IMG/VR virus record: IMGVR_UViG_3300004097_000045
Coordinates: 1-26,406 of that record
Source of the DNA: a virus
Reading direction: 5' to 3' (one strand)
DNA: 26,406 bases
Below, piece after piece: positions 2,022 through 26,406 of the stretch. The notes below the pieces were generated by a model. That model saw only the letters and a list, made by a program, of their open reading frames with translations. It was not told where the DNA came from and did no database searches. Made by a program: the position numbers and the translations under genes. Positions within the stretch are counted from its first letter, which is position 1. The number at the start of each line of letters is the position of its first letter.

Positions 2022-2764
2022 AAACTCTTTTAATTCAAATTGATATATTCCAAGATCAGTATACAGATATTGAAGATAGAACTACAGCTACAGCATCCGT
2101 ATTAAAAGAAAGAAATGACGATGTTAAATCTAAGTCAGTTATTTTTAGTGGAGCAGCCGCACAGAGATTTGGTTGGGATTATACTTTAGAAGGTAAGAGA
2201 GAAACTAAACATAGATCTCCTTGCTTTGAAATATTTAAAATTTTTAGAGATGATAAGTACCTTGAATATGATAGAATATTGTATTTAGATACAGATGTAT
2301 ATTATTACCCAGACAGTCCTAATATTATTGATTATTACCCAGATGAAGGTTTTCATGCTGTAAGTAGATTAGGTAAAATATTTGATGAAGGTAAAGAACC
2401 TGATCACTTATCAAGAATTAATAAAAGCCATTTAATAGAAAAATATAGACAAAATTATTTTAATTCTGGAGTATTACTATTAGATAGAAACACTATACTT
2501 AAGATGAAACCTTTTTTATCACATGAACAAATAGAAGAATGGTTAACAGCTAGAGGTCTCTGGTCAGATGATCAATCAGCTATTAACATAGCTGCAGTTG
2601 AGTCAGGTGTTAACATAGTTCCGATGCATCAGTATTGGAATCAAATGGATAAAAGATATAAAGATGGTTACATAGTACATCTTAAAGGAAGTATAAAAAA
2701 TAGATCAAATGTATTTGATGATAGAGCGAAGGAGTATTTAAATGCCGTTTCCAGCAGTAATTGA
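2018..2764 (+). CDS. GT8-like nucleotide-sugar glycosyltransferase
   Basis: 248 residues, starting at a TTG codon that overlaps the preceding stop (TTGA), with AAAGGT upstream. A DTD motif at residues 91-93 (YLDTDVYYY) fits the metal/nucleotide-sugar DXD site of GT-A enzymes. NYFNSGVLLLDR (146-157), WSDDQSAIN (182-190) and IVHLKG (219-224) follow in the order of the GT8 family, where the last His coordinates the metal. The natural acceptor cannot be read from the sequence; phage relatives glycosylate DNA, virion proteins or host surface glycans. It sits between membrane proteins and clpP. The GT-A fold call is firm, the GT8 label likely. Confidence 0.75.
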   Translation: MKTLLIQIDIFQDQYTDIEDRTTATASVLKERNDDVKSKSVIFSGAAAQRFGWDYTLEGKRETKHRSPCFEIFKIFRDDKYLEYDRILYLDTDVYYYPDSPNIIDYYPDEGFHAVSRLGKIFDEGKEPDHLSRINKSHLIEKYRQNYFNSGVLLLDRNTILKMKPFLSHEQIEEWLTARGLWSDDQSAINIAAVESGVNIVPMHQYWNQMDKRYKDGYIVHLKGSIKNRSNVFDDRAKEYLNAVSSSN

Positions 2765-3344
2765 AACAGAAAAAGATGGAAGAGAAAAAGCTTACGATGT
2801 TTATACTCGATTAGCTAAAGATAGAATTTTATTTTTAAATGGTGTAGTAGAAGAAAATATGAGTAATCATATAGTAGCTACTTTGTTATGGTTAGAGAGT
2901 CAAAACCCTAAAGCACCTATTAATATGTATATAAATTCACCTGGAGGTAGTGTAGTAGCTGGAATGGCTATCTATGATATTATGATGTATATTCAGTCTC
3001 CAATAACTACCATTGTTACTGGTCAAGCAGCTTCGATGGGCTCTTTACTTGCTTGTGCAGGAGCTAAAAGATTAGTAACTACAAATAGCAGACATATGAT
3101 TCATCAGCCTCTAGGTGGTGCTTCAGGACAGGCTACTGAAGTAGAAATAGCTTTCAAAGAACTGCAGCGATGGAAAAAAGTTTTAACTGAAATTTATGTT
3201 AGACATACAGGTCATAGTTTTGTAAAACTTGAAAAAGATATGGATAGAGATAACTTTATGACAGCAGCAGAAGCTGTAGAATATAATTTAGCTGATGAGG
3301 TAGTACATGAACGAGTTAGACATGCTGAAAAAAACAATAGCTGA
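2742..3344 (+). CDS. clpP: ClpP-type ATP-dependent protease proteolytic subunit
   Basis: 200 residues, close to bacterial ClpP. The catalytic triad is in place: Ser98 in GQAASMGS, His121 in MIHQPLGG and Asp170 in DRDNFMTA. The INSPGGSV strand that aligns substrate is present at 65-71. AAGGAG lies 8 bases before the ATG; the gene overlaps the glycosyltransferase end by 23 bases. No Clp ATPase is visible in the window, so the peptidase would have to work with a host ClpX/ClpA or with an ATPase elsewhere in the phage genome. Phage ClpP-like proteins can serve in head maturation or general proteolysis; here it is not next to capsid genes, which favours a proteostasis role. Confidence 0.92.
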   Translation: MPFPAVIETEKDGREKAYDVYTRLAKDRILFLNGVVEENMSNHIVATLLWLESQNPKAPINMYINSPGGSVVAGMAIYDIMMYIQSPITTIVTGQAASMGSLLACAGAKRLVTTNSRHMIHQPLGGASGQATEVEIAFKELQRWKKVLTEIYVRHTGHSFVKLEKDMDRDNFMTAAEAVEYNLADEVVHERVRHAEKNNS

Positions 3345-5529: not shown

Positions 5530-5606
5530 CTGCCCTTAGCTCAGCTGGATAGAGCAGCTGCCTTCTAAGCAGCAGGCCGGGAGTTCGAATCTCTCAGGGC
5601 AGGCCA
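5530..5606 (+). tRNA. tRNA-Arg (anticodon UCU)
   Basis: A complete cloverleaf can be drawn: acceptor CTGCCCT (5530-5536) pairs perfectly with AGGGCAG (5596-5602), discriminator G, and an encoded CCA (5604-5606). The D-loop has AGCTCAGCTGGATAGAGC. The anticodon stem GCTGC/GCAGC closes the loop CTTCTAA, giving anticodon TCT. The T-arm has the standard TTCGAAT loop. It reads AGA, the arginine codon that clearly dominates the phage genes here, so it probably supplements host decoding. Confidence 0.95.
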
Positions 5607-8155: not shown

Positions 8156-9190
8156 ATGAGAATTGAAACAGATATTAAATTAGATTTTAATGATGTACTT
8201 TTAAAACCTAAAAGAAGTACACTTGAATCTAGATCACAAGTAAGATTAGAGAGAAAATTTACTTTTAAAAATAGTAACCGCCAATGGGAAGGTATTCCTA
8301 TTATTGCTTCTAATATGGATGCAACAGGTACTGTAGAGACATACAAAGTACTTAATCGTTATAAGATACTTACCTTTCTTCATAAACATTATAATATTGA
8401 TACTTTGTATGATCTTTTTGCTTCTGAAAAGAGAGAGAATTTAGCTTACTCAATGGGTATTACAGATTTAGATACTCAGAAATGGAAAATGCTAAAAAGT
8501 AAACTTCCAAAAGATACTATAAAGTTTGTTAATATTGATGTAGCAAATGGATATACTGAAAGGTTTATTAATTTTATAAAAAGTTTTAGAGAAGAAAATC
8601 CTAATACTATTATAGTTGCTGGTAATGTATGTACTGCTGATCAAACGCAAGAGCTTATTTTAAGCGGAGCAGATATTATTAAAATTGGTATAGGACCAGG
8701 TTCTGTATGTACTACTAGAATACAAACAGGAGTAGGTTTTCCTCAATTATCTGCAGTTATAGAATGTAGTGATGCTGCTAATGGATTAGGTGGACATGTT
8801 ATTTCAGATGGTGGTTGTACATCTCCAGGCGATGTAGCAAAAGCATTTGGTGCTGGAGCTCACTTTACTATGCTAGGTGGTATGTTAGCAGGTCACGAAG
8901 AATCTGGTGGTGATCTTGTTAATAGAGATGGTGAAATGGTAAAGCAGTTTTATGGTATGTCATCTGAAGTAGCTCAGAATAAGTATGATGGTGGGTTAAG
9001 TAAATATAAAAGTGCTGAAGGTAAAGTTGTTACTATGCCATTTAAAGGACCTTTAGAACCTACTGTACAAAGTATATTAGGTGGTTTAAGATCTGCTTGT
9101 ACTTATGTTGGAGCAGCTAAGATAAGAGAATTAAGTAAGTGTAGTACCTTTATTTTAGTGAATAATACTCATAACAAAGTTTACGAATAA
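8156..9190 (+). CDS. guaC: GMP reductase
   Basis: 344 residues. The N-terminus FNDVLLKPKRSTLESRS and the core GIGPGSVCTTRIQTGVGFPQ align by eye with E. coli GuaC, with catalytic Cys185 followed by Thr187, then SDGGCTSPGDVAKAFGAGA, MLGGMLAGHEESGG and FYGMSSE. There is no CBS-domain insertion, and HEESGG supports GuaC rather than IMP dehydrogenase. It converts GMP to IMP with NADPH, releasing ammonia. Behind a phosphoribosyltransferase it would route guanine nucleotides toward IMP and then adenine nucleotides, a useful flow for an AT-rich genome. That metabolic purpose is inference. Confidence 0.92.
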   Translation: MRIETDIKLDFNDVLLKPKRSTLESRSQVRLERKFTFKNSNRQWEGIPIIASNMDATGTVETYKVLNRYKILTFLHKHYNIDTLYDLFASEKRENLAYSMGITDLDTQKWKMLKSKLPKDTIKFVNIDVANGYTERFINFIKSFREENPNTIIVAGNVCTADQTQELILSGADIIKIGIGPGSVCTTRIQTGVGFPQLSAVIECSDAANGLGGHVISDGGCTSPGDVAKAFGAGAHFTMLGGMLAGHEESGGDLVNRDGEMVKQFYGMSSEVAQNKYDGGLSKYKSAEGKVVTMPFKGPLEPTVQSILGGLRSACTYVGAAKIRELSKCSTFILVNNTHNKVYE

Positions 9191-21400: not shown

Positions 21401-22215
21401 ATACAGAAGATCATGTAAAAAAAATAAGAAAGCATATGCGTGCTGCTATCGAGAATGTGGAAGTAGAGTTATATCCTTTTCCACATTTTCAGGTAGAAAA
21501 TATTTGGCCTAAAAGCATCTATGAAGGGTTTCATGAGTGTAACCCTTTAATAACTCAATCACATTTATCTAAACCTTGGTTACAAAAGCATAGTAAGAAC
21601 AACTCTCACTATCAGATTCGTAAACAAGTAGATTGTTATGACATCGTGAAAGCAGATAAAACACAGCCTGATGTGCAGTTTTGGCAGATTATTCATGACG
21701 TATTAATCAAAGATAATTGGTATGTAAATACAATTGCAAATCATTTTAAAACTTATTTTGCTACTCAATTTGGACCATTAATGAAAGATAATAAATGGTC
21801 AGATAGTGTAGTACAAGAATGGTTTGTACAGAGACATGATAAAGATTATTTTATTGGACCTCATACAGATAGAGAAGATAGAGTTTTTACTAATATATTT
21901 TCATTTCCTAAACAAGAAGGATTTGAGCATTTAGGTACTTCTTTATGGCAAGCTAAAGATAAAGATATCTCTTACGGAGGTAGACATTTTGGTTTTGATG
22001 GTTTTACTAAAGCAGCTCAAATGTCATATAAGCCTAATCAATTATTTGTTTTCTTTAAGTCTCGTTGGTGCTTTCATGCAGTTGAAAAATTTAATGAAGT
22101 CGATGATACTTATAGATACGGAATGCAAATTCAGGTTTACGAACCTAGTGATGCATTTAGAAATATAACTAAGGATACACCTGGTTATACTACTTTGTTA
22201 GGAGATGGTAGATAA
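21397..22215 (+). CDS. 2OG-Fe(II) oxygenase-like protein
   Basis: 272 residues from GTG 21397, seven bases behind AAGGAG and overlapping the nrdB stop (GTGA). The double-stranded beta-helix signature is visible: HTD with His156 and Asp158 (YFIGPHTDRED), a second His227 (WCFHAVEKF) and an Arg240 (YRYGMQIQVY) for 2-oxoglutarate. YKPNQLFVFFKS before the distal His is usual for prolyl-hydroxylase-like phage members. It would hydroxylate a protein, nucleic acid or small molecule; substrate unknown. It sits at the end of the nrd operon. Confidence 0.75.
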   Translation: MNTEDHVKKIRKHMRAAIENVEVELYPFPHFQVENIWPKSIYEGFHECNPLITQSHLSKPWLQKHSKNNSHYQIRKQVDCYDIVKADKTQPDVQFWQIIHDVLIKDNWYVNTIANHFKTYFATQFGPLMKDNKWSDSVVQEWFVQRHDKDYFIGPHTDREDRVFTNIFSFPKQEGFEHLGTSLWQAKDKDISYGGRHFGFDGFTKAAQMSYKPNQLFVFFKSRWCFHAVEKFNEVDDTYRYGMQIQVYEPSDAFRNITKDTPGYTTLLGDGR

Positions 22216-22445
22216 TGTATAAAGAACGATTTGTAGGAGCTCTTAAAGCTAAGTATGAAGCTCAGTATAAAGAAGCTGAAGCTACAATTCAAGTATATCT
22301 TAACAATCCAGTTGCTATTGGAGAACATCCTCAGCATGTTGAAGAGATGGATAAACTTATTGCTTCGATGACTGATGCTAGAGATAAGCTTGAAACTATT
22401 AAAGAATTAGAAAACAATCCAGGATTATTAGTTGAATCGACCTAA
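22215..22445 (+). CDS. Small helical hypothetical protein (76 aa)
   Basis: TAATG overlap with the upstream gene. An almost fully helical, charged protein (LKAKYEAQYKEAEATIQVYL, HPQHVEEMDKLIASMTDARDKLETIKELE), likely a coiled coil. No family recognised. The next small ORF starts inside its final codons. Confidence 0.6.
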   Translation: MYKERFVGALKAKYEAQYKEAEATIQVYLNNPVAIGEHPQHVEEMDKLIASMTDARDKLETIKELENNPGLLVEST

Positions 22446-22602
22446 AATCTACGAGAGAAATCCTGATACTGGAGTTGTTAGATGGCGGTACATAGGTGAA
22501 TCACCTGATGATTATGGATGGCCTAATTATGGAAATCTAATTCTAACTGACGAATGTCACGAGGACTCCAATGTACCGGAACAAAACCATCAAGATACTT
22601 AG
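22432..22602 (+). CDS. Small hypothetical protein, possibly shortened (56 aa)
   Basis: A TTG start within the end of the preceding gene opens a frame reading NRPKIYERNPDTGVVRWRYIGESPDDYGWPNYG, which has coding character and resembles small T4-like phage proteins with a RxRIYERNPDTG motif (from memory). The ORF stops at TAG 22600-22602, about 80 bases into the 3' end of the converging minus-strand gene. The last 16 residues (HEDSNVPEQNHQDT side) look unstructured, so the original C-terminus may have been replaced when the minus-strand gene arrived. TTG is the only in-frame start I see. Confidence 0.55.
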   Translation: MNRPKIYERNPDTGVVRWRYIGESPDDYGWPNYGNLILTDECHEDSNVPEQNHQDT

Positions 22603-22876
22603 ATCTTAATCTTATATTCAACATATCATTGATACACTTAGGATCATGTCTATGCCACCATTGTAAAAGAAACTCTTGCATCTTTGCTTTGTTCTTTTCA
22701 GTGTAGACTACTATTGTATCTTTTATAAGTAAACTTTTATCGTATTCTAAAACTTCTTTAGAGGAACCATAATAATTAACATATTGTTTTTCTGGTTTTT
22801 GAGAGAAACCTATGTAATATCTTCCATCTGGAAAATAAGTTACATAAACTCTAAAAACTTTTTTCGCTTTTCCCAT
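22523..22876 (-). CDS. GIY-YIG-like putative endonuclease (minus strand)
   Basis: The only convincing minus-strand gene. I start it at the ATG whose complement is 22874-22876 (117 aa, MGKAKKVFRVYV); the longer frame upstream is the antisense of the tmRNA. FRVYVTYFPDGRYYIGFS then YYGSSKEVL matches the GIY-YIG fold (degenerate first strand, intact YIG, then the Y-x-GSSK loop seen in Seg/mobile-type members). LLQWWHRHDP may hold the later helix. It is probably a free-standing homing-type nuclease. There is no strong ribosome binding site. Its start lies directly beside the tmRNA promoter, and its end overlaps the converging ORF by 80 bases. Confidence 0.6.
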   Translation of the reverse strand: MGKAKKVFRVYVTYFPDGRYYIGFSQKPEKQYVNYYGSSKEVLEYDKSLLIKDTIVVYTEKNKAKMQEFLLQWWHRHDPKCINDMLNIRLRSKYLDGFVPVHWSPRDIRQLELDFHN

Positions 22877-22883
22877 ATAAATA
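22876..22883 (+). promoter_or_regulatory. T4-type late promoter motif ahead of tmRNA
   Basis: TATAAATA matches the T4 late promoter -10 box, which in T4 is used by gp55 and activated by gp45. It lies just upstream of the tmRNA acceptor piece, so the tmRNA could be a late transcript. The motif overlaps the start codon of the minus-strand gene. Confidence 0.5.
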
Positions 22884-22957
22884 TTTAGTACGTTGCTTGA
22901 TGATGGATCTCGCAATAGATAGGACGGACCCGGGGGCGGTACCCGGCGCCTCCACCA

Positions 22958-22987
22958 TAAACACTTGCATAGTTGAGTGTTTCTTAT
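22958..22987 (+). other. Intervening segment of the permuted tmRNA
   Basis: Between the CCA end and the 5' acceptor strand lies a 30-base spacer that folds into a 7-bp hairpin, AAACACT (22959-22965) with AGTGTTT (22976-22982). In two-piece tmRNAs this segment is removed during maturation, so host RNases presumably process it. Confidence 0.8.
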
Positions 22988-23051
22988 GGGGGCGAAATAG
23001 GATCGACGTATGTTGAAAAGTTTTCTTAGAGATACGTACATTAAAGTAAAT

Positions 23052-23141
23052 GCTAAAAAAAGCACTACTTTTGCTTCAATCTTACCTGTAAAAGTCGAGC
23101 GTGTCTCACTTGTGCAGGAAGCTCTTGCAGCTTCAGCCTAG
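23052..23141 (+). other. tmRNA tag reading frame
   Basis: From GCT at 23052 an open frame runs 29 codons to TAG (23139-23141). It starts AKKSTTFAS and ends QEALAASA. GCT would be the resume codon, preceded by AGTAAAT. Within it GAAGCT/AGCTTC (23118-23123/23129-23134) forms a hairpin. The true resume codon could be a later Ala codon (23073), giving 22 residues. Confidence 0.55.
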
Positions 23142-23214
23142 TCGACTTAGTAGCGATTAGCGGGGTGGGTACTACCTGGCAACAGAAGTGCCATTAATTT
23201 TTTAGGAGTATATT

Positions 23215-23358
23215 ATGCCAACGCGATTTAGACCTCAAACAACACACATTTCAAATCCAAAGAAGACCTCTATTGGACGTAAACCTTCAGTAGCAATGAT
23301 GAACAAAAACAAAAGAAGAAGCTTTAAAAAATATAGAGCACAAGGATCTTCACGTTGA
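23215..23358 (+). CDS. Basic mini-protein (47 aa)
   Basis: ATG 23215 follows TTAGGAGTATATT. The product is strongly basic (MMNKNKRRSFKKYRAQGSS at the end), with an N-terminal TRFRPQTTHISNPKKTSIGRKP. From memory, a similar short protein ending RSFKKYRGQGR occurs in cyanophages; no role known to me. Its stop overlaps the TTG start of the second SGNH-like gene. Confidence 0.6.
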   Translation: MPTRFRPQTTHISNPKKTSIGRKPSVAMMNKNKRRSFKKYRAQGSSR

Positions 23359-24020
23359 ACCATGTATTTACAAATGGATGTTCGTTCAGTACTAATAGAA
23401 AAACTGCTAACGCTAAAGTAGATACTTTTGCTAGTAGATTAGTAGCTGATCATTACAACTTAGAATCTACTCAATATGGTAGAGGAGGAAGAGGTAATAG
23501 AAGAATAGCTATTACATCAAAATTGTATTATGAATATGATACTGAGAGAAAGAAAAATGCTTTTGCTGTTATTCAATGGTCAGGTCCAGGAAGAAAAGAT
23601 TACCCTGCATTAGGTTTAGACAGATGGTTAGACCTTGATACCCCTTGGAGGACATGGGTAAAGCATGAAGAGTACCAGTTCTATATGAAGCAGAAAAAGT
23701 ATGATGACACAATGGATGATACATTCGATACTTGTAATAACATACTAGATCTGCAGAATTACTTTAAATTAAACGGTATTAAATATGTTATGTATTTCGG
23801 GTTACCACAGACTTTTGATCTTAGAACTCGAGATAGTCAACTGCTCTACGAAATGGTAGATTGGTCTAAAGTATATAAAAAAGATACAGACCATTTAACT
23901 TTTTGTAGAGATAATAACTACCAACTCGAAGCTGGAGTTGATGAGCATCCATCTTATGATGGACATAAATTATGGGCGGAGGGACTCTTAGAGTTCATAG
24001 AAAATGGTAAACTTCTTTAA
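23355..24020 (+). CDS. SGNH/GDSL-hydrolase-like protein (copy 2)
   Basis: 221 residues from a TTG start overlapping the upstream stop (TTGA). The same blocks as copy 1 are present: GCSFS (8-12, Ser10 as expected nucleophile), GRGGRGNRRI, a VIQWSGPGRKDY strand and DEHPSYDGHKLW near the end (Asp196, His198). It lacks about 100 residues of copy 1, mainly in the middle. Activity and substrate are unknown. A mini-protein follows in the +1 frame, as after copy 1, and the carbamoyltransferase comes next. Confidence 0.65.
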   Translation: MNHVFTNGCSFSTNRKTANAKVDTFASRLVADHYNLESTQYGRGGRGNRRIAITSKLYYEYDTERKKNAFAVIQWSGPGRKDYPALGLDRWLDLDTPWRTWVKHEEYQFYMKQKKYDDTMDDTFDTCNNILDLQNYFKLNGIKYVMYFGLPQTFDLRTRDSQLLYEMVDWSKVYKKDTDHLTFCRDNNYQLEAGVDEHPSYDGHKLWAEGLLEFIENGKLL

Positions 24021-24108
24021 AAAAATTATTACAAAAATTAGAATTTATTTTGAGATGAAGAAGAAGATCAAAGAAATGAAATCTAAAGATCCATTTATAT
24101 ATCACTAA
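24004..24108 (+). CDS. Mini-protein ending DPFIYH (34 aa), partner of SGNH copy 2
   Basis: Starts within the last codons of the SGNH-like gene (17-base overlap) and stops at TAA 24106-24108, overlapping the carbamoyltransferase ATG. It is hydrophobic/basic at the N-terminus (MVNFFKKIITKIRIYF), has a Lys-rich linker and ends KDPFIYH. The mini-ORF at 1398-1490 ends NPYIYH in the same position after the other SGNH-like gene, which supports both as real genes. Confidence 0.6.
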   Translation: MVNFFKKIITKIRIYFEMKKKIKEMKSKDPFIYH

Positions 24109-25562
24109 TGGAAAATAAAATTATTTGGGGAGTATCTGCATACTTCCATGACGCTGGACTAAGCGTAATTAAAAACGGTGAGATTGTTTTTGCAGCTCAC
24201 TCTGAAAGATATTCTGGTATAAAGCATGATAAGCATCTTAATGATAAGATCATTAAGGAAGCCTTAAAGTTTGGTAAACCTGATGCTGTAGCATGGTATG
24301 AAAAACCTTGGAAAAAGAATATTAGAAAGCTATTAACTGGTGAATGGAGATACTCTCCTTTCGATACTCATCCAGAAACATATATGCAATCATTCGGTAT
24401 TGATGCTCCTGTTCAATTATTTGACCATCATTATACTCATGCAACAGCAGGTTATTATTCAAGTCCATTTAGAGATGCTGCTATTGTAGTTATAGATGCT
24501 ATTGGTGAATTTGAAACTATTACAATTTGGGATGCGGATGGTCACAATATTAAAAAAGTATGGAGTAGAAAATTACCTCATAGTTTAGGTTTATTGTATT
24601 CAGCATTTACTAAGAGAGTCGGACTTAAACCATTAGATGAAGAGTATATTACAATGGGTATGGCTGGTTGGGGCATGCCTACTTTTACTAAACAAATAAA
24701 AGAAGATTTGGTAGATATTAAAAAACTAAAATTAAGAATGAATGTGCATCAAGGTATTGGTAATTATTTACCTCTAGCTGAAAAAGAAGATCTAGCATGT
24801 AGTATTCAAGTAGTTACAGAAGAGTTTATTTCAGAAGTAATGCATAAAGCAAATATACTTACTGGTAGAACTAATGTAGTTTTTATGGGTGGAGTCGCTC
24901 TTAACTGTGTAGCAAATAGAATATTATATGATTATTTTGATCATGTATGGATTATGCCTAATCCTGGAGATTGTGGTTCTTCATTAGGAGCTGCTTTAGC
25001 ACATTATGATGACTTTTGTAAATGGCCTGGTCCTTATCTTGGAACTAAGATTCCTGGAATATACCCTGTATATGATATTATAGACGAACTTAAGAAAAAT
25101 AAGATTGTAGGTGTAGCATCAGGAAGAGCTGAATTTGGTCCTAGAGCATTAGGACATAGAAGCTTACTAGCAGACCCAAGAGGTAATGAGATTAAAGATA
25201 CGGTCAACAATATTAAAAGAAGACAAATGTTTAGACCATTTGCTCCAGCTATTCTCAAAGAACATGTTAATGAATATTTTGATATTGTAACTGATGACTC
25301 ACCTTTCATGCAATTTGTAGGTAATTGTAAAAAACCAGATGAGTTTCCAGCTATAATACATGTAGATGGTTCTAGTAGAGTTCAAACTGTAGGTAAAGAT
25401 GATAGTCCAGGTTTTAGAATGCTATTAGAAGAATGGTATAAAGAAACTGGATGTCCTATGCTATTGAATACCTCTCTTAATATTAGAGGTGAACCTATGG
25501 TAAATACAAAAAGAGATGCAAAAAGATTTGAAAAGAAATATAATGTAAAGGTTTGCTCTTAA
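24108..25562 (+). CDS. NodU/CmcH-family carbamoyltransferase
   Basis: 484 residues, somewhat shorter than typical NodU/TobZ (about 570). N-terminal residues fit the YrdC/Kae1-like domain: YFHDAGLSV (His14), FDHHYTHA (His107, His108, His111, metal and carbamoyl-adenylate site) and VVIDAIGE (Asp130). MGGVALNC and NPGDCGSSLGAA follow. The C-terminal domain has EFGPRALGHRSLLADPR (about 342-358) and MLLNTSLNIRGEPMV. It transfers a carbamoyl group from carbamoyl phosphate via carbamoyl-AMP to a hydroxyl acceptor, usually a sugar. TAATG links it to both neighbours. Acceptor unknown. Confidence 0.9.
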   Translation: MENKIIWGVSAYFHDAGLSVIKNGEIVFAAHSERYSGIKHDKHLNDKIIKEALKFGKPDAVAWYEKPWKKNIRKLLTGEWRYSPFDTHPETYMQSFGIDAPVQLFDHHYTHATAGYYSSPFRDAAIVVIDAIGEFETITIWDADGHNIKKVWSRKLPHSLGLLYSAFTKRVGLKPLDEEYITMGMAGWGMPTFTKQIKEDLVDIKKLKLRMNVHQGIGNYLPLAEKEDLACSIQVVTEEFISEVMHKANILTGRTNVVFMGGVALNCVANRILYDYFDHVWIMPNPGDCGSSLGAALAHYDDFCKWPGPYLGTKIPGIYPVYDIIDELKKNKIVGVASGRAEFGPRALGHRSLLADPRGNEIKDTVNNIKRRQMFRPFAPAILKEHVNEYFDIVTDDSPFMQFVGNCKKPDEFPAIIHVDGSSRVQTVGKDDSPGFRMLLEEWYKETGCPMLLNTSLNIRGEPMVNTKRDAKRFEKKYNVKVCS

Positions 25563-26406
25563 TGTGCGGAATTAATGGTATAACTGAAGGTAATCAGTTA
25601 GCTAGAATTTATAGAATGATGGAGCATACAAAGAGAAGAGGGCCTGATGGTTCTTCTACTTGGACTAATCATCATGTATCTTTCGGACATAACTTATTAG
25701 CTATCTATGGAGATATAGGTCAATCTTTACAACCTTATCTTTATAAAGATAGCGCACTAATATTCAATGGTGCTATCTATAATCATAAAGAGTTTTATCC
25801 TGAGTATGAAATAGATACTCATGCTGTAGCTAAAGGATTATATGAGGAAGGTCCTAAGTTTTTAAGTAAATTAGAAGGTATGTGGGCTTTAGCTTTCTAT
25901 AAAGATGGTAAGTTAATTATAGCAAGAGACCATTTTGGAGTTAAACCTTTATTTTATAGAAATACTAACAAAGGTATGATATTTTCATCATCTATGCATG
26001 CATTAGAAAGAAAAGAAACTAAATTAAATCTTTTTGCTTTTGCTCTTTATAGACAATTTGGATATGTTCCTGGTTACTTAACTTTAATTGATGAAACTTT
26101 TAAATTAACTCCAGGGCAGATAATTGAATATGATTGTTTAACAAGAAAAAGAGTAACAACTAATGTATGGGATGATTATAATTTTATAAATGATTTAGAT
26201 GTTAGTAAAGAACAGTTTAGAGATGAACTTGAGGAAGCAATTAGAAAAAGTTATATTGGTGTTAGACAGCGAGGTGTTTTTCTTTCTGGTGGTCTTGATA
26301 GTACTTCTGTTGCTCACTATCTAGAAGAAAAGAATACATTCACATCAAGATATGAGCCTCAATCAGCTAACTTTAATGACGATGCTGATATGGCTCAAAA
26401 AATGGC
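25562..26406 (+). CDS. asnB: Glutamine-dependent asparagine synthase (partial, runs off the window)
   Basis: The frame starts MCGINGI at 25562, overlapping the upstream stop (TAATG), and stays open to the last base (281 codons). Cys2 is the class II glutaminase nucleophile; RRGPDG and NGAIYNHKEF are the usual Arg and Asn-Gly sites, and FLSGGLDSTS (about 240-249) is the ATP-pyrophosphatase loop of the synthetase domain. It converts aspartate, or a related carboxylate, to an amide using glutamine and ATP. Such proteins in biosynthetic clusters may amidate sugars or peptides rather than make asparagine. The C-terminus is not in the window. Confidence 0.9.
   Translation, partial: MCGINGITEGNQLARIYRMMEHTKRRGPDGSSTWTNHHVSFGHNLLAIYGDIGQSLQPYLYKDSALIFNGAIYNHKEFYPEYEIDTHAVAKGLYEEGPKFLSKLEGMWALAFYKDGKLIIARDHFGVKPLFYRNTNKGMIFSSSMHALERKETKLNLFAFALYRQFGYVPGYLTLIDETFKLTPGQIIEYDCLTRKRVTTNVWDDYNFINDLDVSKEQFRDELEEAIRKSYIGVRQRGVFLSGGLDSTSVAHYLEEKNTFTSRYEPQSANFNDDADMAQKM

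Follow-up and report, generated by a model that had tools for sequence, protein, structure and literature searches.

Two-piece, permuted tmRNA genes have already been reported from phages: Melnitz, a phage of OM43 bacteria (Methylophilales; MZ577097), carries one, and of the 133 unique tmRNA structures that the same study counted in 402 phages, 53 are two-piece (PMC9004378). Its authors argued that the Melnitz tmRNA promoter is early and under glutamine riboswitch control (PMC9004378), and a paper on the tmRNA database gives 79 unique phage sequences, counted irrespective of form (PMC11915505). Our own scans recovered more than 140 distinct viral permuted tmRNAs. The preliminary description of the DNA analysed here, an entire virus record of 26,406 bp that we call the window, had regarded phage-borne permuted tmRNAs as little described, a view that the Melnitz report weakens. 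It had also taken the tmRNA type as a pointer to an alphaproteobacterial host; we considered host assignment on this basis and rejected it as unsafe, since Melnitz possesses an alpha-type gene yet infects a gammaproteobacterium, and the type is therefore no proof. From its sequence, the window tmRNA is a further member of the phage-borne permuted group, set apart by an unusual peptide tag and a promoter that appears to be late-only.

The gene was located at positions 22889-23198 of the plus strand through Rfam covariance models and ARAGORN. Using cmscan, RF01849 (alpha_tmRNA) matched 22848-23198 (+) over its full length (model positions 1-355 of 355) with 119.1 bits and an E value of 2.8e-32, and RF04321 (tmRNA_permuted) matched 22899-23135 with 92.6 bits, both above the gathering cut-offs of 50 and 47 bits, respectively; ARAGORN separately called a permuted tmRNA* at 22865-23232. 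Since the two covariance models and ARAGORN agree, we count the gene as complete and probably working. The alpha-tmRNA search by Infernal had been suggested in the preliminary description, and its strong match, combined with the T4-like neighbours detailed below, upholds the initial proposal of a two-piece permuted tmRNA on a T4-like phage.

The order of the gene is permuted, with the CCA-bearing acceptor piece (22889-22957 (+), from the RF01849 and RF04321 alignments and the fold, with a deduced 5' end) lying 5' of the coding piece (22988-23198 (+), from the alignment, with an approximate 3' end). The first contains the 5' strand of P2, the T-arm, the acceptor 3' strand and CCA, and the second the acceptor 5' strand, D-loop, P2 3' strand, tag frame, P5-like stems and 3' stem. 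In the fold the acceptor 3' strand CGCCTCC (22947-22953 (+)) pairs with GGGGGCG (22988-22994) to form seven pairs (CG CG UG CG CG GC CG), of which the G-U wobble is position 3-70; G3-U70 is the alanine identity signal. The T-arm occupies 22930-22946 (+), its stem formed by 22930-22934 and 22942-22946 in both alignment and fold, and the encoded CCA end is read directly at 22955-22957 (+). All acceptor-stem and T-stem pairs are intact. The exact 37-nt stretch of the acceptor arm also turns up in a collection of bacterial genomes, in 37 contigs whose titles are alphaproteobacterial or unassigned Proteobacteria; the tmRNA gene is therefore of alphaproteobacterial ancestry. Between the two pieces lies an intervening segment of 30 nt with a hairpin (22958-22987 (+), sequence and fold), whose removal from the precursor is expected by analogy with the two-piece family.

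When the fold was computed with the acceptor and T stems held fixed, the P2 5' strand (22893-22911 (+)) paired with 23029-23049 (+) of the coding piece, most pairs having a probability of 0.6-1.0. The predicted energy of the P2 duplex is -20.9 kcal/mol, whereas 194 other permuted tmRNAs have a median of -12.6; this places it among the strongest of that set, and P2 is thus predicted to be an unusually strong helix holding the two pieces together. Because in this pseudoknot-free fold the helix stops 2 nt short of the resume codon, space for a PK1 pseudoknot between P2 and that codon seems to be absent. At the other end of the coding piece a 3' stem, GGUAC...GUGCC (23168-23192 (+), RF01849 alignment and fold), encloses the conserved CCUGGCAACAGA, with ACCTGGCAACAGAA at 23174-23187. 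The acceptor stem, T-arm, CCA, spacer hairpin and tag frame named in the preliminary description are all present, whereas its "pseudoknot" is this 3' element, which a secondary-structure prediction without pseudoknots gives as a hairpin (GGUACU/AGUGCC enclosing an inner CUG-GCAA-CAG).

The surrounding genome is T4-like, as assigned via PHROG matches to the clamp, clamp loader, RegA-type translation repressor and DNA polymerase. Window genes of this kind comprise DNA polymerase gp43, clamp loader gp44/62, sliding clamp gp45, the RegA-type repressor, primase and NrdAB, and an overlapping contig carries UvsX and helicase gp41. A 31-kb record is essentially identical over window positions 4838-26406 and extends 9.7 kb beyond. 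NrdB is 78% identical to that of the Kyanoviridae phage C48C1 and 69% to that of Melnitz. The permuted tmRNA is absent from C48C1 and from most of the NrdB relatives searched; two of them (G017 and G022) carry it at a different place in their records, that of G017 with TATAAATA and without TTGACA. In the nearest relative, G016, no tmRNA was found at the syntenic place and the segment 21317-25562 is largely replaced. Since the gene is missing in G016 and C48C1, it is accessory and dispensable in this group.

About 20 nt downstream of the tmRNA, and probably co-transcribed with it, is a 47-aa basic ORF (23215-23358 (+), PHROG 17967) preceded by AGGAG. Its protein has homologues in Melnitz and several other tmRNA-bearing phage contigs, and among contigs whose positions were compared the family gene lies 1-2 kb before the tmRNA in Melnitz and three others (L094, L118 and L125); this recurrence near phage tmRNAs suggests a shared module. 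No phage SmpB was detected in 34 phage records, the window record included, and host SmpB would therefore be needed. The window also holds a complete ClpP protease gene (2742-3344 (+), Pfam E 2.5e-69), whose best solved relatives are bacterial ClpP and which by context is not a head protease; a related ClpP occurs in G016. A ClpP-tmRNA link is not supported, as ClpP was found in 2 of 32 other records (many of them fragments), the G016 ClpP occurs without a tmRNA, and in most phages with a tmRNA no ClpP was detected. A 328-kb viral record (L165, G027) has a permuted tmRNA with the tag ADENLALAA and three ClpP-like genes. Elsewhere in the window are a tRNA-Arg(TCT) gene (5530-5606 (+)), which has been described for Melnitz and for the Pelagibacter phage Mosig as well (PMC9004378), an IMP dehydrogenase/GMP reductase-family gene (8156-9190 (+)), and a NodU-like carbamoyltransferase gene (24108-25562 (+)) followed by one for an asparagine-synthase-like amidotransferase (25553-26404 (+)). 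The amidotransferase is present in G016, and comparison with the window gave no DNA match there to the carbamoyltransferase.

The tmRNA has at its -10 position TATAAATA (22876-22883 (+)), a T4-type late promoter motif that occurs just once in the 26.4-kb window, where 7.6 copies are expected. T4 late promoters have this motif some 6 nt ahead of the transcription start and need no -35 element, and relative to the predicted tmRNA start the placement agrees with that layout; from the motif geometry we predict transcription to start at about 22889. No sigma-70-type promoter match was found at the tmRNA start, and the window copy has no -35 box. On the minus strand a 117-aa ORF (22523-22876) diverges from the tmRNA, and its start codon and the late promoter overlap; the ORF has homologues at similar places in relatives that lack the tmRNA, and no Pfam or PHROG match. 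The 31-kb record has four copies of the motif, all on the plus strand, and the three besides that of the tmRNA lie a few tens of bases upstream of ORFs, including hsp20 and uvsX. The same position is commonly occupied in other viral permuted tmRNAs. In 118 viral loci, picked by a tmRNA pattern blind to the promoter, TATAAATA stands 53-73 bases before CCTCCACCA in 61 cases against 0.67 expected, and after duplicate removal it was at -10 in 52 of the 100 distinct viral permuted tmRNAs that remained. A TTGAC/TTTAC -35 box accompanies it in 42 of these; the remaining ten, among them the window lineage, are without one. At the tmRNA starts of alphaproteobacterial genes it was seen in 0 of 33 (0/19 and 0/14), the viral and bacterial sets being unmatched in A+T content. 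The initial guess of a late promoter is thus strengthened, and the best reading of TATAAATA is a T4-type late promoter that many phages pair with a sigma-70 promoter. Given the missing -35 box, late-only expression is likewise the best reading for the window tmRNA. The presence of a T4-type late motif at the start of roughly every second viral permuted tmRNA contrasts with the argument for early expression made for Melnitz (PMC9004378).

The tag frame called by ARAGORN (23052-23141 (+)) begins at the resume codon GCU (23052-23054), which is preceded by GUAAAUGC, in agreement with the alpha consensus UAAuUGC, and stays open across 29 codons to a UAG stop (23139-23141) at the family position. 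It encodes AKKSTTFASILPVKVERVSLVQEALAASA, a tag ending in ...LAASA that has neither the proteolysis-type xAA end, usual in alpha-type tmRNAs though not strictly defining, nor an ANDN-type (AANDN-type) start, a peculiarity that the preliminary description had missed. Stop-codon loss with readthrough was rejected as an origin of this tag, as UAGUC occupies the place of the conserved UARUC of other genes. Of the 140 distinct viral coding regions whose tag could be resolved, 138 encode an AA end, the exceptions being the window lineage and L177 (...QSLAV), a count of exceptions that is a lower bound because our tag-calling scheme prefers AA-ending tags. The unresolved viral genes, apart from those of the third lineage below, are legible by eye as AA-ending, and every called tag of the bacterial controls ends in AA. 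A third lineage, on whose tmRNA ARAGORN makes no call, encodes ALAFKPEVTVPVSIFADRELVAV, ending in ...ELVAV, so that, of the roughly 145 viral tmRNA lineages covered, 3 have non-AA ends. This last lineage keeps its tag across at least seven contigs (L131, L135, L356, L360, L378, L397 and L406), and the variant copy L406 differs within the tag by 2 synonymous and 0 amino-acid changes. The commonest viral tag length is 14 aa (72/140). Another phage lineage, made up of nine contigs (L096, L109, L357, L362, L366, L369, L371, L389 and L390), conserves a 22-aa tag with the pattern ANxxALGFADLTVGMSELRLAA, which frequently has a double stop. We also looked for selection on the window tmRNA by comparison with L245 (96% identical overall) and discarded this approach: the tmRNA is identical, yet so, nearly, is the whole tract 21796-24292, and recombination therefore accounts for the identity. 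The tmRNA copies are identical in three contigs, all of them within this low-divergence, probably recombinant tract.

Taken together, we consider it likely, from sequence comparisons, that the window encodes a complete, probably working permuted tmRNA, an accessory gene of a T4-like phage that rescues ribosomes late in infection. A gp55-type late polymerase would transcribe the gene at that stage, host tRNA-processing enzymes would excise 22958-22987, and host AlaRS would charge the acceptor piece with alanine via G3-U70. Host SmpB would then bring the tmRNA to ribosomes stalled on broken mRNAs, where translation would restart at GCU and append the 29-residue tag, the main gain being ribosomes freed for virion production during mRNA degradation. 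Since the tag has neither a Leu-Ala-Ala type end nor an AANDN-type start, tagged products may be poorer ClpXP/SspB substrates than host-tagged ones, although the ...ASA end could still be readable by proteases. Extending this, we speculate that tags without a destruction signal let some phage tmRNAs, driven by late promoters, free ribosomes, and perhaps take the place of host tmRNA, with no delivery of tagged proteins to ClpXP, with the window, L177 and L131 lineages as three separate cases; we offer this generalisation only tentatively, as less likely than not.

The alternative that survives best, which we nonetheless regard as unlikely, is that the window RNA is a decoy or modulator, entering stalled ribosomes with host SmpB and adding a tag that host ClpXP/SspB does not read, so that it competes with host tmRNA and shields phage fragments or alters degradation targets. 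The absence of both the AA end (missing otherwise in only two of about 145 viral lineages) and the ANDN-type start would fit such a role, as would the retention of another non-AA tag, with synonymous changes only, in the L131 lineage; however, the ...ASA end is still made of small, hydrophobic residues, and ClpXP or tail-specific proteases might degrade proteins that bear it, and the window-lineage copies, being identical, carry no information on selection. Clearly less probable is a non-functional tmRNA, either degenerating or captured only recently, in which the odd tag would reflect decay. Besides the tag, this would explain the absence of the gene from close relatives and the covariance score, as 104 of 105 cut-off-passing bacterial genes in a class sample (range 143-312 bits) outscore the 119 bits of the window, but it sits poorly with the intact acceptor and T stems, with a P2 helix of exceptional strength, with a 29-codon frame whose stop is where the family has it, and with the gain of a phage late promoter motif in the right position. 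Finally, that a host ssrA remnant was left by imprecise excision of an integrating element, as an attachment-site relic, is largely refuted: tmRNA genes often serve as integration sites (cited in PMC9004378 and PMC11915505), but this gene is full-length, has its own phage-type promoter and lies within a T4-like replication region, and no integrase was found among the subset of ORF proteins scanned.

With ribosome rescue late in infection as the favoured reading, the window tmRNA adds to the case that control of ribosome rescue by phages is a recurrent trait, and more generally a few phage lineages have tags that lack the usual degradation end. If such tags escape degradation, phages have uncoupled ribosome rescue from protein destruction, which to our knowledge has otherwise been done only with engineered tags. 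A search of open-licence papers turned up no report of phage tmRNAs that have late promoters or whose tags lack the AA end; judged against those papers, our survey of promoters and our catalogue of non-AA tags, both computational, are new observations.

Compared with known systems, the window most resembles Melnitz in being a T4-like marine phage with a permuted alpha-type gene, TATAAATA at -10 and a member of the 47-aa protein family nearby. However, the Melnitz tag (ANDNYVPVDYALAA) has 14 aa and ends in LAA where that of the window has 29 aa and ends in ASA, its intervening segment is long against the 30-nt spacer here, and its promoter is TTGACA-17-TATAAATA, whereas the window has no -35 box. 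With the Caulobacter type described by RF01849 the gene shares its order, acceptor arm, CCA, D-loop, resume context and 3' CCUGGCAACAGA element, but the segment from acceptor stem to resume codon is shorter (64 nt, about 76-87 in most viral genes here), P2 reaches to the resume codon, the tag is long and non-AA, and the promoter is of phage type. The L131 group and L177 are alike in having permuted tmRNAs with long tags of 23 or 29 aa that end in VAV or LAV rather than AA; their sequences are unrelated to the window tag, and they represent separate lineages.
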